Source: a virus | IMG/VR virus record: IMGVR_UViG_3300044970_003159 | Span: 1-21,778 of that record | Direction: 5' to 3' (one strand) | DNA: 21,778 bases | Shown here: piece after piece, positions 643-20,084 of the stretch | Position numbering within the stretch: the stretch's first letter is position 1 | Layout of the letters: each line of letters begins with the position of its first letter | Position numbers and translations under genes: made by a program | Notes under the pieces: generated by a model | Seen by the model: the letters and a program-made list of their open reading frames with translations, nothing else | What the model was told of the DNA's origin: nothing | Databases searched by the model: none

Positions 643-1176
643 AGTTTGATTTTTTCCTAAGTGTTCTTTAAACGAAATAGAAGACTCCCCTTCGGAGGGG
701 GTAATTGTGATCGTTTCTTGTTCGGATAACTCCGAAAAAGCAGTTAGTCCTTTGACTGCCGGAATAGAAACTAAACCAAGATGGCGTAGGGAAAGTTTCC
801 CAGGTGTAGGATTCGTTTCAGCTTCAGGCAGGTAAAATGAGCTACTTACTTTCTTAAACACCCCATCTTTGATGAGTTGTTCGGCTTTAGGGGTAAGCTC
901 CACCTTACCCCAAAGTTCTTGACCTTTCTTCCAGATCTTACGTACCCAACCTAGAGCCGGAGTATCGTCCTGCTGGTCGTGACCGATTATCAGAGGAGCC
1001 TCGTGAGTATCGGGGTTGTAAGACCCCACCACCTGATCGAGGTCACTCTCCGTAAAGACTAACTTCTGACCGGTGGAGGAGATCTGGGGACCTGCTCTGA
1101 ACATCTCTATGAATACAACCTTTTTAGGCTGCTGGGAAGAGAGAGGTTCTTTGTGGTTGAGTACGTGCTCTTTCAT
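1..1176 (-). CDS. Mu gpI-like head maturation protease with C-terminal scaffold region (partial at left edge)
   Basis: Leftward open frame from ATG at 1176-1174 with no stop before base 1, so the 3' end lies outside the window (392 codons visible). Residues about 20-165 read like the Mu gpI protease family: an FxAGxxxSxxG-type start, FTESDLDQVVGSYNP, APLIIGHDQQDDTPALGWV, FKKVSSSFYLP, then NPTPGKLSLRHLGL and PAVKGL, all hallmark blocks of that family. From about residue 180 the protein becomes very acidic, rich in Asp, Gly, Ser and Met, and probably disordered, as expected of a scaffold. The family processes the head shell during capsid assembly. It starts 3 bases after the sheath stop, so it is probably co-translated with it. 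In Mu the same gene also makes scaffold Z from an internal start; see the nested entry. The catalytic residues cannot be assigned with certainty from sequence alone. Confidence 0.88.
   Translation of the reverse strand, partial: MKEHVLNHKEPLSSQQPKKVVFIEMFRAGPQISSTGQKLVFTESDLDQVVGSYNPDTHEAPLIIGHDQQDDTPALGWVRKIWKKGQELWGKVELTPKAEQLIKDGVFKKVSSSFYLPEAETNPTPGKLSLRHLGLVSIPAVKGLTAFSELSEQETITITPSEGESSISFKEHLGKNQTMARKKTKPETPTSVASVVEHNEGGGMTVNINIGGGDKPKANVYDDSGNRISETGAPAEYDMDYGMESDSEDDASAMDPGDGASDSLGLEDGADEGADADPTADGDMPSQDGEAPDAEAGMDSGDDATDGGTDDGSAGPSTDGDTGSGMETEDISGDMQGDDQKIAQLASNYEIDELIKALALKTDAASMMEGEGMSYGEMPEGLKKAMEAKKGG
667..673 (-). promoter_or_regulatory. GTTTAAA element inside the protease gene, before the internal scaffold start
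   Basis: Reads GTTTAAA on the minus strand and lies 24 bases upstream of the ATG at 642. It is within coding sequence (residues Ser-Phe-Lys of the long protein), so the match could be chance. The strand and spacing agree with the other copies of this element. Confidence 0.45.
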
Positions 1177-1179
1177 CTA

Positions 1180-4100
1180 TCAGAATACGTTTGTGGAGTT
1201 AAGCAGAGAACTGAATCTTGCCTCGTTTCTGGAGAAGCTATCGCTCAGTTGAGCAACTTGACCAGCCGGAGTTCTGACGATGGTCACAAGCAGACGCTCG
1301 AGTGTTGGACTTGTAGCCACGTAAACGTCCAATCTCACCGTGCCATTTTCCAGGTCGGTGGTATTGTTATTCGCTGACGAGCACACGACCAGGTAGGCTT
1401 GCTCGGGTCTCGATCCGAATAGCGCTCCCTGACGGAAGAACTGACCCAGAATCTGAGAGGCGATAGACTTCACTCTAGCGTACACGGTACCCGCTGAGTC
1501 GATCTGCTCGAAGAGGATGTCGTCGAAGCTACGACCCATAACATCGATGAGGACGTTAAGGATGGCACGTGTGTTGATGAATCTGAAGAGCGGGTTGGGG
1601 GAGAGGGTTCTGGCACCCCAGGCCACGATTCCACGGTTGGGAAGCGAGCGGATAGGGTTGAGTCCCAGGGCGTAGGTCACTTCCTGTTGCTGGGCGGAGA
1701 TGTCGAACTTGAGTCCGATGGCTCCTCTCAGTGGGTAGCGAGCGCCGGCGGGAGGCTGCTGGAAGCCCTCGTTGGTGTATCTCGAGCAGGCAATGCCCAC
1801 CATGTAGCTGGAAGGGGCAATGTAGCGATCGTTATCGTTCTTTACGTAGGGAGCGTAGAAGGCCGCGTGGCCGAAAGGCACTCCCACGGCGGCTTTGATG
1901 CCGTAGAGTTCGTCCTGGGCCTCGTTGAGAGACATCTCGTCCGCACCGCAGTCGATGTAGGCGATATGCTGGGTGCCCACGATACCCTCAGTGGTGCCAA
2001 GTTTACCCTCGGCGGCTTTGGTAAGCGTCTGGGTGATCTTGAGGCGCTCCTGGCGAGCTTCGTTCTTGCTGGCGAAATCACCCGCCCCTACCTCGTAGGA
2101 GAGCACGGTGTAAGCCTCGGGAGCGAATAGGAAGCCAGGTGAGAGGACTCTAGATCCCATGCCCTGCTCGATGGCGTACATGAAGTCGTTTGACTTAGCC
2201 GTCACCGTGAGCTTGTAGGACTCGTAGCCAGCGTTCTGGTCGATGGAGTTGAGTTTGACAACATTACCATCCAGCACACCGAATCTATTACGGCCGGGGT
2301 AGATCGGGGAGGATACTCCGTTCTTGGAGGTGATCTTCACTCTCAGAACGTAGTCGTGAGAATAGAAGCCGTTGGGTATGGACTTGTCCAGGGTGGCTGG
2401 GGTACCGGCCGGGATGCCTGTCCCTGTAGGAGTTACGGTAGCCGATGTGTTCGAAGCCACCGAACCAACCACGAATCTGATGCCATTAGCCATGATGGTG
2501 TCGCCGATCGCCAACTCTGTGAGGAACTTGGTTCCTACACCTGTGACCACTCCATCTACGCTGATACCCAAGAGGCCGGAGAGAGCGATATCCTCCAGCT
2601 CTGGACGGATGTAGGGGGTCCCAGCATCCGAGATCAGTTTGGTGCTTAGTTGGTGGCCGTTATTGGGGGCGTACTCGTCGGTCGATCCGATCTGCGAGCC
2701 GGAGTTTACAGCTTCGACGGAGTAGTAGCCATCTAGCTCCTTCTCCTGCAGGATGCTGTTGATCTCGGCAACCAGGTTGGTTGTCAGTTCGTCAGGGGTA
2801 GCTCCGTTCACGATGATGGCACGGTTCTCACCGGCAACCTCAACGTAGAAGACCTGGACGGAATCAGGAAGGTATCCGAGGCGATCTGTAACTCCTCCGG
2901 AGGTAGTCACTGTTCCCGAGGGGACTTCTGTGCCCGCAACCTCGGCGGAGTTCTGGAACAGCGAGAATTCCTGGGATACGGAGTTGTACTTCCAGTAGTT
3001 GGCGTCAGCGTCTGCCCACCGCACGTACGAGGCGGGAGCGGAGGTGAGGTCCTTCGACACGCCCACAATCTTGCTCGAGGGGATTGCGGATGCGGAGGCG
3101 TAGTACTCCTGATTGATCAGGAAGTTCTTGACAATGTTCGACTGATCGGTCGAAACATCATAGGCGAGCTTTCTCACCGTGACGTTGGCGCCGGGGGTAC
3201 CAGAGAAGTTGATAACCGCTCCACCCAAGGAGCCGGAGAGCTGGATATCGTCGCCTGACTTATTGACCACGAAGTACACCGTGCCAAAACCGATGGAACC
3301 CAGATCTCCGTCGTCGGTACCCTCCAGTACCACACGGTCGTCATCGGCAAGTCCTACCGAGGAGTTTAGCGTGATGGTATTGGCCGTGGGATTGAAATTG
3401 GCCGGGGTGGCGGTGTACTCCGTAGAACTCTTCAGCACGAAAGCACTCAGAGCGCTACCTGATAGGTGGAGGATGGGTTCACCGGTGGTGATGTCTCTCG
3501 CCACGCAGCGGAAATCCAGCTCTTTCACCGAGGTGTAGAACTTGACCACGAACTGGTTGTTGAGGTCGAGCGGAGTAGCGTAGTTCGTATCGCTGAACTG
3601 GTAAGCCACGAATCTCTCGACCTCAGGAAGATTTCTGGTGTCCTTCGAGAAGATTCTGAACTTACCGGCAATGGCTTCGGTTGCGTTCTGCTCGATGCGA
3701 TAGAAGTCGGAGAAATTATCACCGTTGCCAGCGAGGAACGAGTAGATGTCCCTTGAATTATCTACTTGGTCAAGGGCGGTGGTGGTGATAACGCGGATCT
3801 CGTCGCCATCAGCATCATTCACTCCGATAGGAGTTCCGAAGTAACGACCGTTGATCTTGAGGGCGAAGGCATTGTACCCAGCACCCGCCACGGAGGCTCC
3901 CAGATCAACCACTGTCTCCGGAGTCGGGGAAACGCGGGTGAAGTAGAGGATACCATTTACCCCGACGTTGTCGAAGAAGGCTTTAACGGCGTCGTAGGAA
4001 GCCAGGGCACCCTTATTAGAGGTCGGTGGTTTGCCCCCGATCTTCTCGACAAAGTCGTCCACCGAGCCTATCTGTGTGGGTTTGTAAGGCTCGAGTACGG

Positions 4101-4272
4101 AGTACTTGTTGAGAGCATTGCCCTCGTAGTAGTCCTCGGTGGGCGTGCTGCCGAAAAGGTAGCCTACCGCGTGAGTAGCGATGGGTTGGGGTAGGCCACC
4201 TGTCGAGGCTTGTGTTACGAACACGCCGGGCCGATTCAATGTCGCAGCATTGATTCTAATTGGATTGGCCAT
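1180..4272 (-). CDS. Tail sheath protein, unusually large
   Basis: 1030 residues. Forms the contractile outer cylinder of the tail. The N-terminus (RPGVFVTQ, GGLPQPIATHAVGYLFGSTP) and especially the C-terminal 250 residues are sheath-like: VGVPFGHAAFYAPYV, YMVGIACSRYTNEGFQQPPAG, GIVAWGARTL, FRFINTRAILNVLIDVM and a final LLVTIVRTPAGQ, followed by a serine-rich tail. T4 gp18 is about 660 residues, so this one is some 370 longer. Two beta-type modules appear to be inserted: residues about 290-368 (ANTITLNSSVGLADDDRVVL, then a GTVYFVVN block) and about 563-627 (GVVTGVGTKFLTELAIGDTI, then VVGSVASNTSATV). The ATG at 4272 has no Shine-Dalgarno sequence, but a GTTTAAG element ends 35 bases upstream. 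It is followed almost directly by the protease gene. Confidence 0.93.
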   Translation of the reverse strand: MANPIRINAATLNRPGVFVTQASTGGLPQPIATHAVGYLFGSTPTEDYYEGNALNKYSVLEPYKPTQIGSVDDFVEKIGGKPPTSNKGALASYDAVKAFFDNVGVNGILYFTRVSPTPETVVDLGASVAGAGYNAFALKINGRYFGTPIGVNDADGDEIRVITTTALDQVDNSRDIYSFLAGNGDNFSDFYRIEQNATEAIAGKFRIFSKDTRNLPEVERFVAYQFSDTNYATPLDLNNQFVVKFYTSVKELDFRCVARDITTGEPILHLSGSALSAFVLKSSTEYTATPANFNPTANTITLNSSVGLADDDRVVLEGTDDGDLGSIGFGTVYFVVNKSGDDIQLSGSLGGAVINFSGTPGANVTVRKLAYDVSTDQSNIVKNFLINQEYYASASAIPSSKIVGVSKDLTSAPASYVRWADADANYWKYNSVSQEFSLFQNSAEVAGTEVPSGTVTTSGGVTDRLGYLPDSVQVFYVEVAGENRAIIVNGATPDELTTNLVAEINSILQEKELDGYYSVEAVNSGSQIGSTDEYAPNNGHQLSTKLISDAGTPYIRPELEDIALSGLLGISVDGVVTGVGTKFLTELAIGDTIMANGIRFVVGSVASNTSATVTPTGTGIPAGTPATLDKSIPNGFYSHDYVLRVKITSKNGVSSPIYPGRNRFGVLDGNVVKLNSIDQNAGYESYKLTVTAKSNDFMYAIEQGMGSRVLSPGFLFAPEAYTVLSYEVGAGDFASKNEARQERLKITQTLTKAAEGKLGTTEGIVGTQHIAYIDCGADEMSLNEAQDELYGIKAAVGVPFGHAAFYAPYVKNDNDRYIAPSSYMVGIACSRYTNEGFQQPPAGARYPLRGAIGLKFDISAQQQEVTYALGLNPIRSLPNRGIVAWGARTLSPNPLFRFINTRAILNVLIDVMGRSFDDILFEQIDSAGTVYARVKSIASQILGQFFRQGALFGSRPEQAYLVVCSSANNNTTDLENGTVRLDVYVATSPTLERLLVTIVRTPAGQVAQLSDSFSRNEARFSSLLNSTNVF

Positions 4273-4307
4273 AGAGATTTGAAGACACTATATCTTTCAC
4301 TATTATC

Positions 4308-4314
4308 CTTAAAC
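4308..4314 (-). promoter_or_regulatory. GTTTAAG element upstream of the tail sheath
   Basis: One base off the GTTTAAA element found at the other gene starts. It is in the gap between the sheath and the next gene upstream, 35 bases before the sheath ATG, matching the 33-35 base spacing before the portal and tube genes. GTTTAAG also occurs inside coding sequence (minus strand at 4414-4420 and 12444-12450), so this copy is weaker evidence alone. Confidence 0.4.
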
Positions 4315-4335
4315 AAATGGCTGATTTTGACCTGT

Positions 4336-4578
4336 TTAGTTGGTCGAGTCTACCTTGTAGAGTTGGAAGAGCTCGTTCATCAGCCAGTCGGGGCAGGAGA
4401 TCGCTCCGCACCTCTTAAACTCCAGTATCTTCATCGACTTCCTCAGGATCTTGTTGAAGTCGTTGGTGGTGACGTACCTCGAGTTTACGCTGACAAACGA
4501 CTTCAGTTCGGGTACGTCGCTCCTGAGGCATATCGAGCACAGGATAAGGATCAGTTTCAGTCGTTCCGTATCTGTCAT
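4336..4578 (-). CDS. Small protein of unknown function, tail/baseplate assembly context
   Basis: 80 residues. Mostly helical in appearance, with four Cys (LCSICLRS near the start, FKRCGAISCPDW near residue 60) and no signal peptide or clear domain. Its ATG overlaps the stop of the preceding gene by ATGA (4575-4578), so the two are translationally coupled. Position between an assembly-factor-like gene and the sheath suggests a small tail or baseplate assembly protein, but I do not recognise the family. Confidence 0.72.
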   Translation of the reverse strand: MTDTERLKLILILCSICLRSDVPELKSFVSVNSRYVTTNDFNKILRKSMKILEFKRCGAISCPDWLMNELFQLYKVDSTN

Positions 4579-4994
4579 GTAGGAGTCTTTATGTTCTCTA
4601 TTGCCTCCAGGTGGATCTGGGACATCACGGTGAATTTGCTAAGCGGAATCTGCTCCATATCCGAGACTCCAGCAAACGAACCATTCTGCACTCCGTAACA
4701 CCGTCTCAGCCAGTCAATCTTAGTCATGTAGTTGCAGAGTATGTGCTCCTTGACAATATCAAAAATCTGCATGATGGTTCTCTGGGTCAGGGACCTAAAA
4801 TCCAGGTCTCTCGTGCAGAGAGTGGAGAGAAGTTCGACAACCTGATCGAAGGAGAGTTCGCTATTCTCCTCCGCGAACATGGAATCCAGGTACTCCAGAT
4901 CGGAACCTTTTATGTCCCTGAAGCGGATCTCTCGGGATCTGGAGTCAAACACCGACACGGTGTAGTTGCTGTTCTTTCGCGCCGAGAGCGACAC
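4575..4994 (-). CDS. Probable tail/baseplate hub assembly protein
   Basis: 139 residues from GTG at 4994-4992. A GAGGG stretch about 9 bases upstream supports this start, and an in-frame stop lies just upstream at 5003-5001, so no earlier start is possible. The N-terminal third is a short beta segment (YTVSVFDSRSREIRFRDIKG). The rest is helical, with IVKEHILCNYMTKIDWLRRC and a YGVQNGSFAGV segment. That last region resembles, from memory, small baseplate-hub or hub-assembly proteins (gp26/gp51-type) of T4-like cyanophages. This is a recollection rather than an alignment. It sits between a chaperone-like gene and the sheath and overlaps the next gene by four bases. Confidence 0.75.
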   Translation of the reverse strand: MSLSARKNSNYTVSVFDSRSREIRFRDIKGSDLEYLDSMFAEENSELSFDQVVELLSTLCTRDLDFRSLTQRTIMQIFDIVKEHILCNYMTKIDWLRRCYGVQNGSFAGVSDMEQIPLSKFTVMSQIHLEAIENIKTPT

Positions 4995-4996
4995 CG

Positions 4997-5371
4997 TTAC
5001 TCACCCTCTTCCTCACTCCCTTCCCCCTTTCCGCCAAGGCCCAGAAGACTGTTGATGGCTCCTCCAAGAGCCTTCAGCTGACGAGCGGTGAGTCTCTTAG
5101 CGTCCTTGAGAGACAGTCTTCTCCGGCCCTGCTCGGGAGCGTGGAGGATGCAGATCGTCTGGAGAGTGGCTTCCACATCCGAAATGTTCTTATTATCCGA
5201 GATCTTGGAGATCTCTATAAGATCGCTCGCGGAGGGTTCCCGGAGTGTCAGAAACTTTCCCTCGGAGATCTCTACAATCACGATCTCCGGATCGCCAAAA
5301 TCAAAGTAGTCGTCCTCCGCCTCAACGGCGGCTCCTGAGGCCGCATCTCGCGCCATCTTGCTTACAGCCAT
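4997..5371 (-). CDS. Candidate tail assembly chaperone
   Basis: 124 residues, first gene of the leftward unit. After an acidic N-terminus comes a beta pair and the segment FLTLREPSASDLIEISKI (residues about 40-58). The LREPxxxDL pattern followed by a helical domain of about 60 residues is typical of small tail assembly chaperones of the Mu gp41 / lambda gpG kind, which hold the tape measure or tail proteins during assembly. The C-terminus is acidic and low-complexity (GKGEGSEEEGE). No Shine-Dalgarno sequence precedes the ATG at 5371; a GTTTAAA element ends 23 bases upstream. The next gene follows after two bases, but I see no programmed frameshift joining them. No tape measure gene lies next to it, which is unusual for this role. 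Confidence 0.75.
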   Translation of the reverse strand: MAVSKMARDAASGAAVEAEDDYFDFGDPEIVIVEISEGKFLTLREPSASDLIEISKISDNKNISDVEATLQTICILHAPEQGRRRLSLKDAKRLTARQLKALGGAINSLLGLGGKGEGSEEEGE

Positions 5372-5394
5372 AGTGTTTGTCTGATGTCAAATCC

Positions 5395-5401
5395 TTTAAA
5401 C
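5395..5401 (-). promoter_or_regulatory. GTTTAAA element, leftward arm of the divergent promoter region
   Basis: Reads GTTTAAA on the minus strand, 23 bases before the ATG at 5371. It is one half of an inverted pair with 5408-5414, separated by six bases (CCCTTT), in the gap between two divergent operons. Confidence 0.6.
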
Positions 5402-5407
5402 CCCTTT

Positions 5408-5414
5408 GTTTAAA
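5408..5414 (+). promoter_or_regulatory. GTTTAAA element, rightward arm of the divergent promoter region
   Basis: Reads GTTTAAA on the plus strand, 24 bases before the GTG start at 5439. It forms an inverted pair with 5395-5401, so each copy points to its own operon. Confidence 0.6.
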
Positions 5415-5423
5415 ATTAGTATA

Positions 5424-5430
5424 GAGGAGG
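5424..5430 (+). promoter_or_regulatory. Ribosome binding site GAGGAGG fixing the start at GTG 5439
   Basis: A strong GAGGAGG lies eight bases before the GTG at 5439. It argues against the longer reading from TTG 5406, which would begin inside the GTTTAAA promoter-like element and translate the ribosome binding site. Confidence 0.7.
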
Positions 5431-5438
5431 GGGAGGTT

Positions 5439-6044: not shown

Positions 6045-6292
6045 TGAGCAAAGAAGTCTACGTAAACATGGATTTTAAGGGTGCTAGTAGGGTTCTCAAC
6101 CTACCCACACCCCTGGATGACTCGGAGCCGGTAACTTTCGGTATGTTGAAAGCTCTAGAGGATAGAGTAGAAATTTTTGACACCTCTACTTCTGTGGACG
6201 GAAGCATTCCGGTCTATAACGCTGGACAGGGCAAGTTCCTATCCGACTCTACTAATACCAAACTCACCTTAACCGACGGGGGCAATTTCTAG
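6044..6292 (+). CDS. 82-residue fibre-associated protein
   Basis: Starts [20 protein letters not shown], followed by a short [20 protein letters not shown] helix and ends LTLTDGGNF. It is coupled to the gene before it (TAATG overlap) and ends two bases before the first large fibre. Small proteins with this kind of sequence occur next to fibre genes in T4-like cyanophages, by my recollection; a role as connector between baseplate and fibre, or as a fibre N-terminal adaptor, is an inference. The terminal DGGNF resembles the DGGTF end of the following fibre. Confidence 0.75.
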
Positions 6293-6294
6293 TT

Positions 6295-8370
6295 ATGGCT
6301 AACGTTCTGCGCATCAAGCGCCGGGCCAGTGGTAACGCTGGCGCACCGGCCAGCTTAGCCAACGCGGAGTTGGCCTTTAACGAAGTCGACGACATCCTGT
6401 ACTATGGTAAGGGTACGGGCGGTGCTGGTGGTACGGCCACCACAATTCCGGCGATTGGCGGCTCAGGCGCGTTCCTCAGCCTTAGCGGCGCGCAGACCGT
6501 TTCGGGCAACAAGACGTTCACCGGCGACGTAATCGTCACCACTCAGACACTGTCCGACAACAGCACGAAAGCGGCGAGCACGGCTTTTGTCAAGGGGCAG
6601 GGGTATCTAACGAGCGCGACTGGAGTGACCAGCGTTGCGTTATCGCTACCGAGTTTTATCACAGTCAGTGGCTCTCCAGTTACCACAACTGGCACACTCA
6701 CCGGCACTTTGGCCAGCCAGACAGCAAATACAGTATTCATCGCGCCTGACGGTTCTGCAGGCGCCCCGACTTTCCGCTCCCTTGTCGCTGCGGATATTCC
6801 CACTCTGACAGCGGCGAAGATCAGCGACTTCGATACGCAAGTACGGACTAACCGCCTAGATCAGATGACGGCGCCGACGGCGTCGGTGGCTTTGAACAAC
6901 CAGCGGATTACTGGCCTGGCCGATCCGTCGGGGGCCCAGGACGCGGCAACGAAGGCGTATGTCGATGCGCTTAAGACCGGTCTGGATGTCAAGGACAGCG
7001 TAAGGGCTGCGACGACCGCTAACATCACGCTGAGCGGCACTCAGACCGTTGACGGTGTGGTCCTGGTGGCCAATGACCGCGTGTTGGTGAAGGATCAGAC
7101 CACCGCGTCTGGCAACGGTATCTACGTTGTTGCCGCTGGGGCCTGGACCCGCGCACTTGACGCGGACAACACGCCTGGTTCCGAAGTGACAGGCGGTATG
7201 TTCACCTTCGTGACGGAGGGTACGGTTAACGCGGACAGCGGCTGGGTACTGACGACCAACGACCCCATTGTTCTCGGTACTACGGCGCTGACATTCGCCC
7301 AGTTCTCCGGGGCTGGCCAGATCACGGCAGGGGCCGGTCTGACCAAGACCGGTAACACTCTCGATGTGGCCTCGACGGGCGGAGGTTCGCTGACAATCGG
7401 GGTCGATTCGATCAACCTGACATCGGGTATCGCAACGGCGGGCACATACCGCTCTGTCACTGTTGACACTTACGGCCGGGTTACCGCAGGCACATCCCCG
7501 ACAACTTTCTCTGGGTACGGTATCTCCGATACATCGGCAAACTTGGCCTCGGCGATCACCGACGAGACGGGCTCTGGCGCTCTGGTGTTCGGTACGTCAC
7601 CGTCCCTGACCACGCCTTCTCTGAGCGGGGAGACATTCAGCACAACGGCCAACGTAACTGCGGGGACCAACGCCCAGGGCCAGGGCGCTCTGACCAGCGA
7701 CCTTAGCGTTATCACCACAGCGGCGGCGAACCCGAGCGGCGTGACTCTGCCCACCGCTACGACCGGCCGGCGCGTGATCGTCGTTAACAAAGGCGCCAAC
7801 CCGGTCAATATATTTCCGGCATCCGGCGCAACTATCGATGCTCTAGGCACCAACGCCAGCATCCAGCTCGCCGTCAACGGCGTGATGGAGTTCAACGCGT
7901 CAAGCACGACGCAGTGGTACAGCTCGTTCAACTCGTCCGTCTCCGGGACCGGGGTTAGTTCGTTCTCCGCCGGGACGACAGGCCTGACCCCCAGCACCGC
8001 CACGACCGGTGCGGTCACTCTGGCCGGCACGCTCGCTCTGGCTAATGGCGGTACGGGTGCGACTGACGCGGCGGGTGCTCGTACAAACCTCGGTCTGGTG
8101 ATCGGGACGAACGTGCAGGCCTACGACGCCGAACTGGCCACTCTGGCCGGTATGGCCAGTGGCACGGCCACTTCGCTCGCCGCTCTGACCTCGACTGAGG
8201 CCTCGGTGATCGACGGCTCGACCACCGCGACTGCGACGACCCTGGTCCTGGCCGACCGCATGGTTATCAACGACGCAGGAACGATGGTCCAGGTCGCCCT
8301 CAGCGACCTCGTCACCTTCCTTGAAGACGGCGCAGCTTCCGGCTTCGATCTGGACGGCGGAACATTCTAA
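6295..8370 (+). CDS. Large tail fibre / adhesin
   Basis: 691 residues. The N-terminus ([19 protein letters not shown], then [19 protein letters not shown]) is the small attachment module common to many phage tail fibres of the Mtd N-terminal type. Next comes the typical fibre segment [18 protein letters not shown] with [17 protein letters not shown] (about 61-102). A middle domain at about 209-345 ([46 protein letters not shown]) is widely found in phage fibres. Asn/Thr/Gly-rich beta stretches follow, then a helical coil-like stretch and a DLDGGTF end. No chaperone or peptidase domain is visible. Arginine is coded almost only by CGN (one AGG in about sixteen), unlike neighbouring genes that use many AGA/AGG, which suggests exchange of this cassette. 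Confidence 0.9.
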
Positions 8371-8379
8371 GACCAAATC

Positions 8380-8397
8380 GCCCCGTACATACGGGGC
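8380..8397 (+). terminator. Hairpin between the two fibre genes (weak terminator or mRNA-end structure)
   Basis: GCCCCGT and ACGGGGC form a perfect seven-base-pair stem with a four-base loop, nine bases after the stop of the first fibre. No run of T follows (TTAACCCTT), so it is not a textbook Rho-independent terminator. It may partly terminate transcription, protect an mRNA end or insulate translation of the second fibre. Confidence 0.45.
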
Positions 8398-8432
8398 TTA
8401 ACCCTTCTACATAGAAATCAACGGGGAGCCAA

Positions 8433-9542
8433 ATGGCAAATACAATACGAATACGGCGCAGTTCGGTTGCGTCGGCAGTTCCGACAACCACGCAGCTCGC
8501 TCTGGGCGAACTGGCCATTAACACGAACGATGGAAAACTCTTTCTGAAGAAAGACGTTTCGGGAGTGGAGAGCATTGTTGAGGTCGGAGCGGGTGGTGGT
8601 GGCGGTGGCAGTCCTGGGGGCAGTAGCGGTCAGATCCAATTTAACAATGCCGGTGCGTTTGGTGGTGCGAGTGATGTCACTATCCACGAGGGCGATCTGG
8701 TTCTTGCGGACAACGCTACAGCGACCGCACCGGGAGCAGGCAGCAAGCTCGCGGCGCTGTCAATCGGAGGCCGCTCCATGCCGAGCTTCAAGAACAGCTC
8801 TACATCGGCCGCTGCTGTACTGCAGCCGACATTTGCTCGGAACCGCATCTGCATCTGGCAGGGAGCCAGTGGATCGAACGCTCCTGTCGCCTTGGGCATT
8901 GCCACGCTGACCTCAACAGGCACCGCAACATCCGCCAACATCGCCACCACCAACAGGCAGACGCGAACGCAGCGCCTTGAGTATCTCGTCACTACCGCAG
9001 CCACTACAGCGGTTGCCGGCTGGCGCTACCCCAACCTGGGCTGGACGGTCGGCGGCGCTACTGCGGGTGAGGGCGGCTTTTTTTACGTCTGCCGCTGGGG
9101 GCCAGCCACCGGCGTCGCAACAACCACGAACCGTGCCTTTGTCGGCATGACCAACACCACTGCTGCGCCGACCGACGTTGAGCCGAGCACGATCACCAAC
9201 ATCGTCGGCATGGGCTGGGACGCAGCAGACGCCAACATCCAGATCATGCACCGCGGCACTGCTGCAATCACCAAGGTCAACCTCGGCGCCAGCTTCCCCG
9301 TGCCCACCGCGGACCGCACCAAGGCTTATGAGCTGGTGATGTTCTCACCTCCAGGCAGTACGCAATCGGTGAACTACACCGTGACCGACCTCGGCACAGG
9401 AGCCACGGCCTCTGGCACGATCAACACCAACATGCCAACCACCACCACGCTCCTGACCCAGCGTGGCTGGATGAGCGTCGGCGGCACCAGCAGCGTCATT
9501 GGCATCGCGCTGATGAGCTGCTACTTAGAGACTGACTACTGA
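8433..9542 (+). CDS. Second tail fibre / adhesin
   Basis: 369 residues. The first 45 residues (MANTIRIRRSSVASAVPTTT, LALGELAINTNDGKLFLKK) match the attachment module of the preceding fibre. A glycine linker (GGGGGGSPGGSSG, about 53-66) and the common SGQIQFNNAGAFGGASDVTI segment follow. The C-terminal 230 residues form a different beta-rich domain: TRTQRLEYLVTTAA, GGFFYVCRWG, RAFVGMTN, YELVMFSPPGSTQSVNY. It is likely the host-binding head, since domains of this shape cap fibres in various phages. The ribosome binding site is GGGGAG at 8423-8428, four bases before the ATG. Codon use again favours CGN for Arg. It lies behind a hairpin, so its level may be set separately from the first fibre. 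The two adhesins probably use the same attachment point and bind different receptors, or one is an alternative to the other. Confidence 0.88.
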   Translation: MANTIRIRRSSVASAVPTTTQLALGELAINTNDGKLFLKKDVSGVESIVEVGAGGGGGGSPGGSSGQIQFNNAGAFGGASDVTIHEGDLVLADNATATAPGAGSKLAALSIGGRSMPSFKNSSTSAAAVLQPTFARNRICIWQGASGSNAPVALGIATLTSTGTATSANIATTNRQTRTQRLEYLVTTAATTAVAGWRYPNLGWTVGGATAGEGGFFYVCRWGPATGVATTTNRAFVGMTNTTAAPTDVEPSTITNIVGMGWDAADANIQIMHRGTAAITKVNLGASFPVPTADRTKAYELVMFSPPGSTQSVNYTVTDLGTGATASGTINTNMPTTTTLLTQRGWMSVGGTSSVIGIALMSCYLETDY

Positions 9543-9603
9543 CACGCTTTGTGATTTAAGTAAAAATCAACTCAGCTAAAATAGTTAGTTGTCGTACTCA
9601 GTG

Positions 9604-9610
9604 GTTTAAA
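9604..9610 (+). promoter_or_regulatory. GTTTAAA element before the small-gene cluster
   Basis: Plus-strand GTTTAAA in the 76-base gap after the second fibre. It ends only eight bases before the ATG at 9619, closer than at the other genes, so either the transcript is nearly leaderless or the true start of that gene is further in. Confidence 0.45.
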
Positions 9611-12596: not shown

Positions 12597-15500
12597 TTTA
12601 ACTTACCTCCGGACAGGGTCTTAGGGCAGAACGCCAGGTAATACTTCCCTTCGTAGGGAGGTGAGAACCTCTTGCATTTCATAACATTCATGCAGATCTG
12701 GTAGTGGAATGGGGAGTCGAAGCCCGCGCAGTTGAATTCCGAACCCTTCTCCATCTTGGCCTTTAAGAACTCCACGACTCCGAACTCGGTGTTTCCGTAC
12801 TCGCTCAACTCAGCCCCGCCCGACTCGTACACGAGGTGATCGGAGAGTATTGTTGTGAGTAGTGGCTCCCCCCTCTCCCCGACCAACGTATCCGGGGGTA
12901 GTAGGCTCATGAACGAGGCGGGTTGGTCGAACGCCGACGTGGGAACCATCGCGGTGGTGGGTACGTACTCCGCGAAAGTTCCCAAGGGCCTATCTACCGC
13001 CACCTTGGATGGAGGGACTCCAGGGATGTCGGAGTAGGTCTCGGGGAAGAGCGACTTATTAAACCTACCGACGCATCGCTGCTGGGATGAGGAGTACAGA
13101 TCCTCGCAGTTAGAACCACCGAACCTCCTACACGACGCCACCGGATCGAAGCTCTTGGAGCCGGGAGGGTCGGAACTTGACGTGGAGATGTAGTTGGAGC
13201 CGAGGGCCTGGGATCTGACGTCCGGCCCTCCGTCCAGGCTGGTGTACACAGGGGGGACGGAGCGGGGCTTTGAAGGCACCCGTTGCACGGGTGTATCCAA
13301 CTCGTACCTAGTGGCAGGGGAGAAGGGCTTAGCTGTCGCCCCGGCGACTTGTAACTCCACCGTCTCGTCGGGCAATAGCACCGTATTGGCCAGAAGGTTG
13401 GCCTCGGAGAACTTGATGAACTTGCAGACAAGGTTGATAGGAAGACCGTCTACCATCTCGGTGCTGAGGGCCTCCGACATCGCGCCGGCGATGGCCGTAG
13501 CCTGCTCCGAAGTAACCGAGTTTTTTGCGGGGACGCGATTGGGAAGTCTGGAATTCCCGACTCCAGGCGACTCGGAGATGGGCGCGGTGCTCGCTACGCT
13601 AGTCATTCCCGCCATGCTACTCCCCCCGGCCATAGACGACACGAGCTGCGGCAGGGTGCCGTAGGTTTTGTTCTGCGATAGGACGAGTGGCCCCAGTACC
13701 TTCGAGAAGTCCGAAGTATACGAGAAGTTGTAATCCAGTTCGGAGCTGAAGATATTTTTGACGATCGACAGGTACTTGGAAAACTCCTCAAGATTATCCA
13801 CGATCCTGAGGAGGGCGTTGGTCTTGTTCTCCGTATCCACCTGGAAGTTGTTTACCTGGTAGGAGTTTTTGTAGTTGCTAAGTTTGACTCCAAGACCGGC
13901 CAGGCTAGCGTACCTCAGAAAAGAGGTGAACACTCCGCCGGAGAACCCGTCCAGTACGTGACCTAGCTCTGTAGGCGAGGACGGGCCATTGAGCACGGAG
14001 AACAGTTCCTTCGGCGTAAGCCCCCTCGCCTTATCGTACAGGGAGTCGATAATGTCCAGGGACCCTACATTACCAAGGTTGTCTCCGATTATCTTAGTCC
14101 ACTGCTTCAGCGCGATGGGCACCACTGAGTTTGCCTGCTCGTAGGTCATGGTGGGAGTGGCAAACGCGTCGTCTTTGTACACTCCTGTTATCATTTGCTC
14201 GACAAGAGGCTGGAGGATCTGCACATCCTGCTTATTTTTTATGATGGTAGACTCGCCATTCTGGTAGATGAAGGATATGGATTCCAGCAGCGTGAGGTTA
14301 TTTTTTCCAAGTATCTTGTTGAACTTCACAAGCTGTCCCGGATCTACAGCGTAGGTCAAGCCGATAAGTAACCCTATGAGTTTAGGATAGCGATTTATAT
14401 TGATCGAAGTTAGTCTGGACTTGTCCTTCTCCGAAAGCTTCAGTATGTTGAGAAGCGAATCCACCGAACCACTGGTATAGAGGAAGGAGAGGTACGCGTC
14501 CACGGCCTCCTGCCCACCAAACTCGTAGACGAGCTGGGCCAGCTCGTAGGCTTTGAAGAATGACTTGAGGTCCGACGAGTCGGAGATGGGAGCAAAGTTA
14601 CTCACCAACTGCGAGAAAGACTCCACCTGTAGCAGTTTATCCACCTCCGAATCCCTGAACCCGAGGGATCTCAGAAACTCCACCAGTTTCCTATCACTGG
14701 CCTCGTAGGCTTTGAAGGAGATGTTGGGTATGAACTCGGAAGTGGAGATCCCGACCCCTCTCATCACATCCAGTATCTCTCCCACCTTACCCGAGATGCT
14801 CTCTATCCACGTTCCGAAAAACTCCAGGGACTTTCCTGGTAGTACGGGTTTGACAGTCGCGGCGGAGAACCTGGAGTAGTTATCCAGGAGGTACTTGATG
14901 GAGCCCGTAAGTCCTCCTCTTATGGAGTCGTAACCGTAGTCTAAAAAGTACATCCCAGGGGGAAACACCCTCTGAAACTCCTCCATCTGAACCCGCACCG
15001 AACCCAGTCCCTCGTATCCGGGTATGCGGCCCCTCTCGTCCAGCGAATTCACCACCGCTTTTACGGTATCCCCGACGATAAGGCTTCTCCGGTAGATGCT
15101 CTCCAGCGAGTAGAGCAGGATGTCCACGCTTGGAGGCTCCGAGTAGGATCCGGCCTCCTCTAAGGAGTCAAATCGGTCCTCTAGACCGTCGTAGAACTGG
15201 GAGTAGACGGGGTTGTAGATGAGTTTCCCGCTCGCCTCCACGGTGCCCTCGGGAACCTTCTGGGAGTGCACGAACGACCTCAGGGAGCCGAAAGGATCTA
15301 GGAACTTCAGCCCGGGCATCTTATTGGGGCTCGGAGACGCTTTGTAGAGAACGTCGAACCTGCCAAAGGCTGAATCTCCGCCGGAGAGGCTGAAGATCTC
15401 CGGAATGCTCCTTCCAAAACAGGATGCGAATAGGTACTCCGAGACTCTGGTGATGTAATCCACGCCTCCCACCGGGGAGCCCTCGTAGGACCCAAAGGAG

Positions 15501-16474
15501 TCGGATAGGTTCTTAAGGTCTTTTATGGAATCCAACAGTTGCTTCCCGACGCCACCGAACGTTGAGGGTAGTAGGTTCTCGTCCACGTTCTGAGTCTTAG
15601 AGTACTCAGCTACTTTCGAGTCGGAGATTATCTCGTTGGAGTCGAATCCGGCCTCGGTGAATTTGCCAAAAGCGTCCCGAACGTTGGACTTCAGAACATT
15701 TCTAAAGGACTTTGCGTTGTTAAATAGTCTGGAGGAGTACTTTACCCACTCGGTGTTGTCGAAGTAATCGCGACGGGGCGAAGTCACCTCAGGTCGTAGT
15801 TTGTACAACTCTCCCTCAAACACTACGAGTGGGGAGTAGGATACTGGAATGCGGTACTGAGACAGACCCAATTGCGTAGCGAACCTATTATACCCTAGAG
15901 GAGAGTAGGAGGTGGTGTCGGTCTGCGACGAGAAAACCTCCCAGTACCGCTCCTCGGTAAACAGAGTGTACACCTTGCCACTACTGTTGTTGTACTCGAG
16001 TGGGGTCACGGAGTACAGTGCTTCCGAGTACTGGTACTCAGGCTGCGCTCTAAGTATATCAGTGGCTTCCGACGACGAGTAGAACGCAAAATCCCCAGCA
16101 TTCTCACCTATGAGCGCAAAGTAGGTCTTGAGCGATCCGGCTATGTTGGCGTCGTAGGTGGGTTTGGACCTGAGAAAAGACAGTACCTCCTCAAGGACGA
16201 AGGGCAGGAGATTCTGCACCGTTTCGATGTCAAAGTCCAGGTCGGATAGCACGTTGATCAGCACCGACTTGAGCGGGAAGATGGACACCTGCTCATTTGC
16301 CCCCACTCTGTCCAATAGGACGTTGAGGAGCCTCAATCCGGAGCTGAGGAATCTCTGCCTTGAGAGATCCACCTTCAGTTTTCCAAACGCCACCTCGTAG
16401 GCCAGAAGACCCTTGGATACTAGGCTTTGAGCGTTTATACGGACACTCTCTAGAAGCTCTGAGGTCATCGACAC
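12593..16474 (-). CDS. Very large virion structural protein, unknown role
   Basis: 1293 residues from GTG at 16474, or 1291 from ATG at 16468 (the latter puts the start 22 bases from the GTTTAAA element). No Shine-Dalgarno sequence. Residues 1-300 and 400-900 are alpha-helical with many Leu, Ser and Tyr (for example ILDVMRGVGISTSEFIP, LLDNYSRFSAATVKPVLPG). About 1000-1110 is Ala/Ser/Pro-rich and probably flexible. The last 185 residues contain seven Cys (SCRRFGGSNCEDLYSSSQQR then C; FNCAGF; ICMNVMKC; FCP), suggesting a stabilised or metal-binding tail domain. I do not recognise it. Size and place in the structural cluster suggest a baseplate, tail-tip or internal virion protein. A tape measure is less likely because long coiled-coil or membrane-spanning stretches are not obvious. 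Confidence 0.85.
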   Translation of the reverse strand: MSMTSELLESVRINAQSLVSKGLLAYEVAFGKLKVDLSRQRFLSSGLRLLNVLLDRVGANEQVSIFPLKSVLINVLSDLDFDIETVQNLLPFVLEEVLSFLRSKPTYDANIAGSLKTYFALIGENAGDFAFYSSSEATDILRAQPEYQYSEALYSVTPLEYNNSSGKVYTLFTEERYWEVFSSQTDTTSYSPLGYNRFATQLGLSQYRIPVSYSPLVVFEGELYKLRPEVTSPRRDYFDNTEWVKYSSRLFNNAKSFRNVLKSNVRDAFGKFTEAGFDSNEIISDSKVAEYSKTQNVDENLLPSTFGGVGKQLLDSIKDLKNLSDSFGSYEGSPVGGVDYITRVSEYLFASCFGRSIPEIFSLSGGDSAFGRFDVLYKASPSPNKMPGLKFLDPFGSLRSFVHSQKVPEGTVEASGKLIYNPVYSQFYDGLEDRFDSLEEAGSYSEPPSVDILLYSLESIYRRSLIVGDTVKAVVNSLDERGRIPGYEGLGSVRVQMEEFQRVFPPGMYFLDYGYDSIRGGLTGSIKYLLDNYSRFSAATVKPVLPGKSLEFFGTWIESISGKVGEILDVMRGVGISTSEFIPNISFKAYEASDRKLVEFLRSLGFRDSEVDKLLQVESFSQLVSNFAPISDSSDLKSFFKAYELAQLVYEFGGQEAVDAYLSFLYTSGSVDSLLNILKLSEKDKSRLTSININRYPKLIGLLIGLTYAVDPGQLVKFNKILGKNNLTLLESISFIYQNGESTIIKNKQDVQILQPLVEQMITGVYKDDAFATPTMTYEQANSVVPIALKQWTKIIGDNLGNVGSLDIIDSLYDKARGLTPKELFSVLNGPSSPTELGHVLDGFSGGVFTSFLRYASLAGLGVKLSNYKNSYQVNNFQVDTENKTNALLRIVDNLEEFSKYLSIVKNIFSSELDYNFSYTSDFSKVLGPLVLSQNKTYGTLPQLVSSMAGGSSMAGMTSVASTAPISESPGVGNSRLPNRVPAKNSVTSEQATAIAGAMSEALSTEMVDGLPINLVCKFIKFSEANLLANTVLLPDETVELQVAGATAKPFSPATRYELDTPVQRVPSKPRSVPPVYTSLDGGPDVRSQALGSNYISTSSSDPPGSKSFDPVASCRRFGGSNCEDLYSSSQQRCVGRFNKSLFPETYSDIPGVPPSKVAVDRPLGTFAEYVPTTAMVPTSAFDQPASFMSLLPPDTLVGERGEPLLTTILSDHLVYESGGAELSEYGNTEFGVVEFLKAKMEKGSEFNCAGFDSPFHYQICMNVMKCKRFSPPYEGKYYLAFCPKTLSGGKLK

Positions 16475-16489
16475 GACAAATCTGTTAAA

Positions 16490-16510
16490 CTTTAAACTTG
16501 AGGTTTAAAG
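16490..16510. promoter_or_regulatory. Perfect inverted repeat of GTTTAAAG in the second divergent gap
   Basis: CTTTAAAC and GTTTAAAG are exact reverse complements separated by five bases (TTGAG). The minus-strand GTTTAAA (16497-16491) points at the 1293-residue gene, 22 bases from its ATG at 16468. The plus-strand copy (16503-16509) points at the gene starting at 16533, 23 bases away. The arrangement mirrors that at 5395-5414. It could be two back-to-back promoters, or an operator bound by a dimer. Confidence 0.6.
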
Positions 16511-16532
16511 CTATGAGAACGTACAAGAAGTT

Positions 16533-16994
16533 ATGCAGTCCAAAGTCTCGGTGACCCTAATCAAGAGTCAAGCGGTGAACAATTCCTCCGACCTGAATAA
16601 GATGGCTGTTCATCTCGAGCAGATACTAGCCGAGAAGGATGGAGTTGAACTGAAGGTCCGCCAGGGACTCACCGACGCTCTCATCAAGACCACCTCGTTT
16701 GTGGTGTTCTGTGGCTACGACTGCGCCACGCTATCCGAACTTTTCAAGGTGCTTTCCTTCTCCGAGAGCGCTGACGGTCCGGTTGTCTTCCTCTACGAGG
16801 AGCCGGGTCAGTCCGTCTGGGAGAGACTGAACTACATCCTGAGGGATGGCGTGGATCTGCGACGTATGGATCCTAAGATTTTTCACAAGATCGTTGACAC
16901 GTGGTCCTATCGTGATATAATTGCTACTATAGACGTCGAACTACGTAAGCTTGGAACTGGATCGACTACTGGCTCTGACTCCCCAGCTAAGTGA
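16533..16994 (+). CDS. Small LOG/SLOG-like protein
   Basis: 153 residues. The part from about 54 to 106 (SFVVFCGYDCATLSELFKVL, then GPVVFLYEEPGQSVWERLNY) resembles the core of LOG/SLOG Rossmann-type nucleotide-binding proteins, where a beta strand and a GGxGTLEELFEV-type loop are followed by a kPVvLLN strand. The exact PGGxGT loop is absent here, so an active phosphoribohydrolase is not supported. A nucleotide-sensing or structural remnant is possible. The N-terminal 50 residues are helical and the C-terminus is a polar tail (GTGSTTGSDSPAK). It is the first gene of the rightward head operon, after the GTTTAAA element. A short 13-residue frame from ATG 16513 precedes it and may only be leader. 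Confidence 0.75.
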   Translation: MQSKVSVTLIKSQAVNNSSDLNKMAVHLEQILAEKDGVELKVRQGLTDALIKTTSFVVFCGYDCATLSELFKVLSFSESADGPVVFLYEEPGQSVWERLNYILRDGVDLRRMDPKIFHKIVDTWSYRDIIATIDVELRKLGTGSTTGSDSPAK

Positions 16995-17928
16995 GGAGCA
17001 GTTTCGCCTGCTCCTAGAGCACGATCGCTGGAAGACGGAGGCCACCTTCTCCCACGAGGTGAGACTCGAGGAGTTACGGATCGCCTCCAGACGCGGAGGA
17101 GGCGGAGGAGGGGGCTCCAAAGCCCCTGAGTCCGGTGCGGGAGGTCCTTCTATGGAGGACCGCAGATTCAACGAGCTGACCTCGTACGGGGCCTGCGGCG
17201 ACAAGCACATCGGCCTGATCTCCAAGACCAAGGTGTGGGAGGGAGCTAGCGATCGCTCCTCTAAGCTCTTCGAGCAGTGGTACTCCCACCTCCAGGAGAA
17301 GGACGTGGTTCCTCTTAAGGACCTGAAGGAGGGGAGGATCAAGACTCTACTCCTGGCATTCCTCTGGGCTAGCGGATGCGCCCATCGCATCGCCAAGTGG
17401 CCCGAGGCACAGGACTCCCACCTCGTCGAGACACTGCGCAAGGATCTCAGGGATAGGTTCTCCAAGTTCTCTAAGCACTCCATCACCGCGGCCTACGAAT
17501 CGCTCAAGGTCTTCTGGAAGGAGATCAACGACTACGAATCGTGCCCCTTCAACTCCAGCCTCATCTCCGATGTTCTGGACGAGTCCTACCAGTACGTCTC
17601 GCAAAAGGCCGAGGAGGAGTCTAAAGTTGATGTGAAAAACTCGCCTCTTTTCTCCGAGTTTGAGAGGAACTTCCCGTACGTCTCCCTAGACGTTCTGGAG
17701 AAGTACTACCTGAAAAACAGATTCAACTTTGTGGCGGCTGGAGTCTGCTCCCTGCGCAAGACCTTCACAACCGTGCGCCCTCAGGAACTGGAGCACAAAT
17801 TCTCCGAGAGTGAGTGGCCTAAGAAGTGGCACATCTACCTTAGCTCATACGAACCAAAATGGCAAGCACAGCTCGAGAAGATACAGCAAGAGACCCGGGA
17901 AGCCCAGAGGGAGTGGAAAGAGGGGTAA
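16951..17928 (+). CDS. Unknown head/packaging-context protein with glycine linker
   Basis: 325 residues from TTG 16951 (about 44 bases inside the previous gene); the first ATG is at 17152, which would give 258 residues. The N-terminus is a helix (LSEEQFRLLLEHDRWKTEAT) and an alternating charged helix, followed by a seven-glycine linker (SRRGGGGGGGSK). A helical domain of about 230 residues comes next (SYGACGDKHIGLISKTKVW, LFEQWYSHLQEKDVVPLKD, KSLKVFWKEINDYESCPF type segments). The frame before the ATG looks coding (charged amphipathic helix), so the upstream start is favoured, although TTG lacks a good ribosome binding site. Its place before the portal suggests a small terminase, head-completion or neck protein, but I do not recognise the fold. 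Confidence 0.75.
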   Translation: MELDRLLALTPQLSEEQFRLLLEHDRWKTEATFSHEVRLEELRIASRRGGGGGGGSKAPESGAGGPSMEDRRFNELTSYGACGDKHIGLISKTKVWEGASDRSSKLFEQWYSHLQEKDVVPLKDLKEGRIKTLLLAFLWASGCAHRIAKWPEAQDSHLVETLRKDLRDRFSKFSKHSITAAYESLKVFWKEINDYESCPFNSSLISDVLDESYQYVSQKAEEESKVDVKNSPLFSEFERNFPYVSLDVLEKYYLKNRFNFVAAGVCSLRKTFTTVRPQELEHKFSESEWPKKWHIYLSSYEPKWQAQLEKIQQETREAQREWKEG

Positions 17929-18110
17929 ACATCCTCACGAACTCCCAGCCGGTCATCGTAGACGGGGCGGACGAGTACATCGAGAAGTACGAGAAAGGCG
18001 AGATATCCGTCGACGAACTATACGACTTCATCCTGAACGCGGAGGTTGTCTACGTAGATCGTTCTAAACATTCGGAGTTTAAAGAATCAGATAAGAACCA
18101 GACAGAGTAG
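17859..18110 (+). CDS. Short acidic protein of unknown function upstream of the portal
   Basis: 83 residues from ATG 17859, overlapping the end of the previous gene by 70 bases. A GTG at 17913 would give 65 residues with a 16-base overlap, and the first 18 residues look low-complexity, so the start is unsure. From about residue 30 the protein is compact and acidic: VIVDGADEYIEKYEKGEISV, then DELYDFILNAEVVYVDRSKH. The pattern looks like a small helical domain. The GTTTAAA element that probably drives the portal lies inside its 3' end. Role unknown. Confidence 0.6.
   Translation: MASTAREDTARDPGSPEGVERGVNILTNSQPVIVDGADEYIEKYEKGEISVDELYDFILNAEVVYVDRSKHSEFKESDKNQTE
18077..18083 (+). promoter_or_regulatory. 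GTTTAAA element upstream of the portal gene
   Basis: Lies inside the last codons of the preceding small gene (Glu-Phe-Lys), 35 bases before the portal ATG. This spacing is the same as before the sheath and close to that before the tube (33). Confidence 0.5.
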
Positions 18111-18118
18111 GGACGTGC

Positions 18119-20059
18119 ATGACTGAGAATCGTCAGGCGGCGAAGCAGATTAAAACTGGCTACTACGACCGATACTTCAGTCTAGGCATAGCTCAGGGCA
18201 GCTTAGCGGGTTATAAGGCCGATCCTTACGCTTTCACAGCGACTCCCTACCTCAACTCGGGTACGATCCTCCCGCGCCGCGACGACATCCTCATCGAGGA
18301 GGGTGGTGGTGGCCCGCGAGCGATCGAGAAGTACATGCGACTGTTCAATGACAGTCACATCATCGCCGCCTGGGAAAAGATCATCGGGGAGATCGTCCAG
18401 CGCAAGTGGGAGATCGATCCCGCCAGCCCCTCCGATCGCGACGAGGAGGTCGCTGAGTTCGTCCGCCAGGTGCTGAAGCGCATGGGCACGAATACTCGGC
18501 AGGCCTACGGCAAGGAGATGCTGGTAACGTCCAACTCCGCGTTCGATACGTTTATCCGTGGGATGTGCGAGTCGATGATCCTCGGCATCTCGATAGGAGA
18601 GATCTGCTGGATGAGGCAGGGCAATTACATCGTCCCGTCGGAGATCAAGATACGCGACCCACGCAGGTTCCAGTTTGTCCTGAACGAGGACGGGACTATG
18701 TCCCCGCGCCTGATGACGGTGGACTCGCCGGTGGAGGGCATACCATTGCCCCTGCGTTCGATGGTCATACACAGGCACTGGTCCTATAGCAACTTCATGG
18801 ACCCGTACGGCACGGGTCTGGGGCGTCAGCTCTACAGCCTTGTTGAGTTCAGACGTACGCTGATGTCGTTCTGGCTCCAGTACGCGGACAAGCACACCAC
18901 CCCCACAGCGGTGGGCAAATTCTCTCTGGGCACTCCCGACGAGGAGGTGGCATCCCTATTCACGGCGCTTCAGCGCCTGGGTCAGGAGACCGCGATCGTG
19001 ATCCCCGACGAGATGGAGGTGGATTGGTTGGAGAGTCAGGGCCGCTCGGAGGTGTACGAGAAGCTCATCGAGTACGTCGACCAGCAGATATCCTTTGTCC
19101 TCAATGGCGAGAATACGGTGGGGCAGGAGACCGGTAATGTGGGTTCGTACGCCCGGGACCAGGTATCCGACTCGTTGAGGATGCGTAAAGCAAAAACCTT
19201 CTCAGAGGAATTAGATGAGACAATTAACGCCACGCTTATACGTTGGATTGTTGAGCTTAACTATCCGGGTGTCTCCGTTCCTAGACTTCGTAGAAACTTT
19301 GATGATCTAGAGCAGCGTGAGGATCCCGTCAAGATCGTCCAGATGCTGACGCAGCTTCAGGCCGTGGGTTACGAGGTCAAGGACCTTGACTGGATGAGGG
19401 ACAAGCTGGAGATCCCGTCCCTGGGCAAAGTCGACCAGGCCGGGATGATGGGCATGGGTGGAGCCCCACCGGCCGCGGGCGCAGCGCCCATGTCCGAACC
19501 GAAGACCCCGGAGCAGATGAACGATTCGGCGAACGGAGCCATGGGGGCGTTCGGAGCCGACCAATCGGACATGCTCAGCCTCTTCGACTTCTCCGAGGGA
19601 GACTACGATGAGGACGGGGATACGTCCGACAAGACCAAGAAGGATAAGATCGCCAAACTCATAGCGTCCAAGTTCGACGGAGCTCTGGACGATGTCGGGT
19701 TCCAGCGCATCGTCTCGGATAGTGGGGATTCGGAGGCTTCCGCGTCCAGGATCCACATCGACGAGTACACCTCGCCAGGCGAGATCGCCCACGGTTCCAG
19801 AAGGCTCGTCGAGGAAGTCAAGAAGGTGCCGTACCTGCGACCCGACCAGTCCATAGCGCTCAGCGCCCTGAGCATGGAACTGTACAGCGTGGAGAACCAG
19901 ATCAGAGTGGATGATATAGACGTACTCGAGACCACAAAACTTCTCGACCTCTACCAGAGAATCTACAGACTTAACCGCTCTGCGGTGCATAAGGAGTGCG
20001 TGGTGATCGACTGCAGGAAGGCGGGTTACTGGAAGTACTTTGCGCCGTACCTGATGTGA
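18119..20059 (+). CDS. Portal protein, Mu gp29 / DUF935 family
   Basis: 646 residues. Forms the dodecameric ring at the capsid vertex through which DNA is packaged and to which the neck binds. Residues about 60-400 carry the DUF935 core: PRAIEKYMRLFNDSHIIAAW, KWEIDP, FDTFIRGMCESMILGISIGE, IKIRDPRRFQFVLNEDG, MVIHRHWSYSNFMDPYGTGL, TAIVIPDEMEVDWLESQG, LNGENTVGQETGNVGSYARD. Mu gp29 is about 510 residues; this protein continues past a flexible Met/Gly/Pro/Ala linker (441-500, MMGMGGAPPAAGAAP) into a separate C-terminal domain (505-646) with an acidic start. AGGGAC before the ATG is a modest ribosome binding site. Together with the gpI-like protease it shows a Mu-type head. Confidence 0.93.
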   Translation: MTENRQAAKQIKTGYYDRYFSLGIAQGSLAGYKADPYAFTATPYLNSGTILPRRDDILIEEGGGGPRAIEKYMRLFNDSHIIAAWEKIIGEIVQRKWEIDPASPSDRDEEVAEFVRQVLKRMGTNTRQAYGKEMLVTSNSAFDTFIRGMCESMILGISIGEICWMRQGNYIVPSEIKIRDPRRFQFVLNEDGTMSPRLMTVDSPVEGIPLPLRSMVIHRHWSYSNFMDPYGTGLGRQLYSLVEFRRTLMSFWLQYADKHTTPTAVGKFSLGTPDEEVASLFTALQRLGQETAIVIPDEMEVDWLESQGRSEVYEKLIEYVDQQISFVLNGENTVGQETGNVGSYARDQVSDSLRMRKAKTFSEELDETINATLIRWIVELNYPGVSVPRLRRNFDDLEQREDPVKIVQMLTQLQAVGYEVKDLDWMRDKLEIPSLGKVDQAGMMGMGGAPPAAGAAPMSEPKTPEQMNDSANGAMGAFGADQSDMLSLFDFSEGDYDEDGDTSDKTKKDKIAKLIASKFDGALDDVGFQRIVSDSGDSEASASRIHIDEYTSPGEIAHGSRRLVEEVKKVPYLRPDQSIALSALSMELYSVENQIRVDDIDVLETTKLLDLYQRIYRLNRSAVHKECVVIDCRKAGYWKYFAPYLM

Positions 20060-20077
20060 TTCAGGGGGGTGGGCTTA

Positions 20078-20084
20078 GTTTAAA
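20078..20084 (+). promoter_or_regulatory. GTTTAAA element upstream of the tail tube gene
   Basis: Plus-strand GTTTAAA in the 58-base gap after the portal, 33 bases before the tube ATG. The leader has no Shine-Dalgarno sequence (the ATG is preceded by TTTATCCCGCC). The gap shows no strong terminator. Confidence 0.6.

Follow-up and report, generated by a model that had tools for sequence, protein, structure and literature searches.

A conserved GTTTAAAG word ahead of virion genes is a probable late promoter element of S-TIM5-type cyanomyoviruses

An oriented word ahead of gene starts

Does a short word that recurs at gene starts across a fragment of viral DNA mark a phage-specific promoter, and what would read it? 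The window, by which we mean the whole stretch analysed, is IMG/VR record IMGVR_UViG_3300044970_003159, a 21.8 kb fragment (21,778 nt) with 56% G+C. It contains exactly eight TTTAAA hexamers, all at the positions originally predicted, compared with a mean of 1.6 and a maximum of 4 in shuffled sequences. All eight are GTTTAAA (0.94 expected; 0 of 100 shuffles reach eight), and the reversed string, used as a control, has no occurrence in the window. Given the G+C content of the window, this signal is not a matter of AT-richness. Since TTTAAA is palindromic, orientation rests on the flanking G, which puts five sites on the plus strand (5408, 9604, 16503, 18077, and 20078) and three on the minus strand (667, 5395, and 16491). 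Each lies 0 to 45 nt (in fact no more than 35 nt) ahead of a start codon on its own strand, as had been claimed; this zone makes up 2.4% of window positions, giving a binomial p of 1e-13 that is slightly optimistic because two of the starts (632 and 5439) are choices.

A megablast search of the window against phages gave zero matches. Its best isolate relatives are Cyanophages S-TIM5 and S-TIM54 of the genus Aurunvirus (portal 62% to 63%, sheath 48% to 52%), and its virion genes are orthologous to those of S-TIM5 and keep their order and divergent blocks, which identifies it, on sequence grounds, as part of the genome of a cyanophage of S-TIM5 type (Aurunvirus). This identity rules out a TATA box of archaeal kind (TTTAWA ahead of leaderless genes), a reading suggested by the spacing. 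Much of the remaining genome is open to examination because a 118.5 kb contig (G001) is a near-twin, 96% to 98% identical across most of the window. The tail-fibre-like region at 6909 to 9580, probably a host-range module, is partly out of alignment with this otherwise near-identical contig. With three further relatives (G002, G003, and G004) and the two isolates, the set comprises six genomes of 40% to 56% G+C; those of S-TIM5 and S-TIM54 are complete, while the four from IMG/VR, which may be incomplete, have gene starts from a simple, purpose-written ORF caller.

The fuller consensus of the element is GTTTAAAG, with GTTTAAGG, GATTAAAG, and GTTTAAAT as tolerated variants. Copies of GTTTAAAG are found at 18077 to 18084 (+), within the end of the preceding gene and 35 nt before the ATG (18119) of the Mu-type portal gene (18119 to 20059, +; PF06074, E 1e-75), and at 16503 to 16510 (+), 23 nt before ATG 16533. 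The latter forms a divergent pair with GTTTAAAG at 16490 to 16497 (−), where the predicted start gaps of 8, 22 to 24, and 33 to 35 nt hold in part: they are matched by the in-frame ATG (16468), 22 nt away, and missed by the first GTG (16474), only 16 nt away. The other divergent pair consists of GTTTAAAG at 5394 to 5401 (−), 23 nt before ATG 5371, and GTTTAAA(A) at 5408 to 5414 (+), 24 nt before GTG 5439 and followed by TAGA. Four of the eight sites thus belong to such pairs, in which the words (5394 to 5414 and 16490 to 16510) are only 5 to 6 nt apart; two promoters within one pair should exclude each other. GTTTAAA(T) at 20078 to 20084 (+) is followed by TAGATA and precedes the tail-tube ATG (20118) by 33 nt. 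GTTTAAA(T) at 9604 to 9610 (+) is 8 nt from ATG 9619, a gap also seen in the near-twin contig; were transcription to begin 7 nt further on, the mRNA would have next to no leader, unless translation begins later. The proposed ninth near-copy, GTTTAAG at 4308 to 4314 (−), does lie 35 nt ahead of the ATG (4272) of the tail sheath gene (1180 to 4272, −; phrog_17610, E 8e-294), and it can be considered real since it is part of a tolerated variant, GTTTAAGG at 4307 to 4314 (−).

Recurrence in related genomes and the genes marked

To rank words without assuming a motif, all 8-mers at −60 to −1 of gene starts were compared. GTTTAAAG is the top-ranked upstream 8-mer in all six genomes. In S-TIM5, 25 of its 36 sites are upstream (1.1 expected, p 2e-30), and the corresponding counts are 28/38 in S-TIM54, 12/23 in G001 (p 4e-13), 15/24 in G002, 18/29 in G003, and 22/34 in G004. 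The variant GTTTAAGG is enriched as well (13/17 upstream, 0.5 expected). Used as a positive control, the T4-like cyanophage Syn9 yields its known late box, ATAAATAA, with the same script, and no Syn9 gene has GTTTAAAG ahead of it. The frequency of the word within genes and in the wrong orientation, assessed on whole relatives, failed to refute the promoter reading. The signal is clearest in the G+C-rich genomes. The word is short and AT-rich, as a chance or compositional pattern would be, and such an origin has a negligible probability: it is refuted by the shuffles, by conservation among orthologs, and by the near-twin contig, which has 28 sites of the word versus 2 of its reverse.

Comparison of homologous regions shows that the word recurs before divergent orthologs. 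Orthologs of word-bearing S-TIM5 genes carry the word far more often than other orthologs do (p 8e-8 in G001, 9e-8 in G002, 1e-8 in G003, and 2e-11 in G004), and among IMG/VR loci it is present ahead of the tail tube in 23/23, the portal in 21/22, the gene starting at 16533 in 16/18, and both members of the 5371/5439 pair in 9/9, although the genomes share descent and these footprints and locus counts are not fully independent. The proteins in the footprint are mostly 30% to 66% identical, and the intergenic DNA flanking the word is largely scrambled among relatives. At the 16490 site, 13 of 16 IMG/VR loci have a GTTTAAA-type word and the remaining 3 have GTTTAAG. The sheath site is fixed as GTTTAAGG in all IMG/VR relatives read and is GTTTAAAG in S-TIM5 and S-TIM54.

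The genes marked by the word are biased toward the virion. In S-TIM5, 19 of the 31 genes with GTTTAAAG carry a virion or packaging annotation, compared with 28 of 181 without it (p 3e-7), and at the level of operons the association with virion-gene content has an odds ratio of 26 (p 4e-9). Twelve of the 31 are not annotated as virion genes, and many virion genes, including the major capsid, have no copy; the latter are perhaps read through from upstream. A second class of promoter-like site, TGnTATAAT (an extended −10 of host type), stands before 16 genes in S-TIM5 (NC_019516.2), none of them with GTTTAAAG, and heads genes of replication and metabolism (gyrase, nrdA, thyX, dCMP deaminase, and others). 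GTTTAAAG and the TGATATAAT class are never ahead of the same S-TIM5 gene.

The copy of GTTTAAAG at 666 to 673 (−) was predicted to stand at a gene start. It does precede an ATG (632) by 34 nt, and both site and start lie within a longer head-protease ORF (1 to 1176, −) of the Mu-like protease I family. Codons around the site are 92% to 97% identical in five relatives, compared with a gene mean of 63%, and the in-frame SFKE codons at the site are kept at the nucleotide level in five divergent genomes. The TAGG at offset 7 (TAGA in S-TIM5) is kept in relatives as well. Around the internal ATG, about 28 codons of the protease gene (628 to 711, −) have near-complete synonymous identity among relatives of 40% to 56% G+C. 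Synonymous conservation at the site points to a signal carried within the coding sequence. Nested scaffold genes occur in Mu and lambda, and a probable nested scaffold ORF (MARKK...; 1 to 632, −) begins at the internal ATG, in frame within the protease gene, and runs off the window. By analogy with Mu and lambda, the element at 667 is probably the promoter of this nested scaffold gene, which is unannotated in S-TIM5 and S-TIM54; the word would thus predict a gene that annotation has missed.

Anatomy of the putative promoter and its candidate reader

The sequence preceding the word has no conserved −35-like position, in agreement with the claim that a shared −35 box is absent. TTGACA-like sites there are at chance level (40 vs 35 expected) and without preferred spacing, and the word differs from TATAAT, so these are not host SigA promoters of the TTGACA/TATAAT type. 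GTTTAAA was also considered as a −35 box itself, and was rejected because at most gaps this would put the start site within the gene. The gap from word to start codon has a mode of 23 nt, with few below 20, much as in Syn9, where the T4-type late box has gaps of 20 nt upward (mostly 20 to 28). On the downstream side, TAGA has its maximum at exactly 7 nt past GTTTAAA (16 occurrences vs 0.8 expected), and TAG occurs at offset 6 to 8 in 36 of 112 sites (6 expected), or about a third. This weak TAGA fits the position of a transcription start site if the word occupies the −10 position.

The same stretch allows another arrangement, in which GTTTAAAG is a box for an activator, some 22 nt ahead of the start and comparable to that of T4 MotA, and a TAGATA-like stretch 6 to 8 nt downstream is the −10 for a host sigma factor assisted by a phage activator. 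The enrichment of TAGA/GATA at a fixed offset is in line with this arrangement, as is the lower number of Shine-Dalgarno-like sequences in genes with the motif, which very short leaders would explain. However, GTTTAAAG is the word that dominates the conservation, with TAG accompanying only about a third of the sites; transcription would have to begin 0 to 4 nt from many start codons; the gaps are distributed just as they are for the late element of T4 type in Syn9; and no activator candidate was identified. We regard the activator box as unlikely. In five genomes, Shine-Dalgarno-like sequences were found in 23 of 112 GTTTAAA genes and in 228 of 716 others (p 0.015).

Action in the mRNA leader, as a translation or RNA-stability signal, could also account for a close and regular sense-direction distance to start codons. 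It is nevertheless improbable, since each strand is served separately in divergent intergenic regions and convergent ones have no copy, some sites are 69 to 85 nt from the start, and the spacing of TAGA from the word is fixed independently of the gap to the start codon. We give equally little credence to a regulator site, repressor or stoperator-like, that lies near promoters by chance: TTTAAA is palindromic and repeated short phage sites can be stoperators, but the complete 8-mer lacks symmetry and always points toward the gene, and no other promoter element accompanies it.

The claim of a phage-specific promoter is supported by genome-wide enrichment, ortholog footprints, structural-gene bias, and spacing. 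In our judgment the late promoters of S-TIM5-type cyanomyoviruses probably consist of one DNA element, GTTTAAAG, read by a phage sigma factor; we infer the late timing of these genes, the start site, and sigma binding.

Searches for a reader covered several polymerase components. None of the six genomes gave a match to gp55 (phrog_234), the gp33 co-activator (phrog_254), or the gp45 sliding clamp (phrog_223), all of which were found in the controls Syn9 and S-PM2 (PHROG families were used because PF02916, the gp45 family, matched nothing even in T4-like controls). A single-subunit RNA polymerase of the T7 type (positive control, P-SSP7) and an RNA polymerase beta' subunit were likewise not found in any of the six. 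Each of the six has one sigma factor of phrog_351 (gp108 in S-TIM5; annotated 'SigF' in S-TIM54), which thus co-occurs with GTTTAAAG in 6/6 genomes; Syn9 has neither this sigma family nor the word upstream of its genes. Region 2 and part of region 3 of this sigma factor are nearly invariant across the six genomes, and its nearest solved structure by sequence is cyanobacterial SigA. Region 4 has no sequence match, and a structural model of low confidence (pLDDT 58) shows a weak alignment with sigma structures over its full length. From co-occurrence and exclusion, the phrog_351 sigma factor is the most likely reader of GTTTAAAG.

The sigma gene start is overlapped by a small thioredoxin-like gene, which is preceded by a promoter-like site. 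TGGTATAAT is present ahead of the sigma operon in S-TIM5 (111420, −) and in all four IMG/VR genomes, and TGGTACAAT in S-TIM54, suggesting that the operon bears a conserved, promoter-like TGGTATAAT-type element of the host kind. Together, a host promoter before the sigma operon, the sigma factor, and the GTTTAAAG genes suggest a cascade. Soon after infection, the host's own RNA polymerase and sigma factor would read the TGnTATAAT extended −10 promoters, including that of the sigma operon. The phage sigma factor (S-TIM5 gp108 family) would then join the host core polymerase, and its region 2 would melt DNA at GTTTAAAG, which replaces the −10 box. Transcription would start about 7 nt downstream of the word, often at TAG(A), leaving virion-gene leaders of about 15 to 30 nt. 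The late promoter, its likely sigma factor, and the conserved early promoter before the sigma operon would make up a complete and testable cascade.

Comparison with known late-transcription systems

The original prediction likened the element to the late promoters of T4 and the cyanophages, and the likeness holds for architecture only. The T4-type late promoter, TATAAATA or, in T4-like cyanophages, NATAAATA (PMC2984593), operates with gp55, gp33, and gp45. Like GTTTAAAG, it is one element without a −35 box, precedes virion genes at the same start distance, and occurs in genomes that encode a phage sigma factor. In S-TIM5, however, TATAAATA is upstream of genes at only 1 of 16 sites, gp55, gp33, and gp45 were not found, and the sigma factor belongs to another family (phrog_351). 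The GTTTAAAG promoter is thus not a T4 late promoter, because word, sigma family, and accessory factors all differ.

Cyanophage S-CBWM1 (Aokuangvirus), the nearest other isolate, also has an upstream word, at the same spacing as GTTTAAAG (a gap of mostly 21 to 31 nt), and phrog_351 sigma factors. Its top upstream 8-mer is different, GGGTAAAA(C/T) (20/34 upstream vs 1.2 expected), and it has two phrog_351 sigma genes and no visible TAG initiator. The Microcystis phage Ma-LMM01 resembles the S-TIM5 type in being a cyanophage without gp55 and gp33; its late promoters resemble SigA sites, with no phage-specific motif found (PMC5780444). Repeated predicted promoter words have been described in the Nostoc phages A-1 and N-1, although these words are longer, and the GTTTAAA matches in that paper are host CRISPR repeats (PMC4916379). 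In the papers searched, a set without the 2012 S-TIM5 genome paper, none was found that pairs GTTTAAA with a cyanophage promoter. S-TIM5-type relatives occur in many metagenomes, and no promoter logic for them was found in the same set of papers. Such a logic would make late genes recognisable in environmental contigs by their sequence and would supply sigma/promoter pairs for the study of change in −10 recognition.

It is possible, with a chance that we put a little below even, that cyanomyoviruses have a second, independent solution to late transcription: a −10-only promoter with a non-gp55 sigma factor, in which sigma factor and word have drifted together (GTTTAAAG in Aurunvirus, GGGTAAAA in S-CBWM1) and a protease-embedded promoter drives a nested scaffold gene. 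With no gp33/gp45 clamp, late transcription under this proposal would not be coupled to replication as it is in T4. These phages would then separate sigma-directed late transcription from the clamp-coupled late transcription of T4 type in the same hosts.
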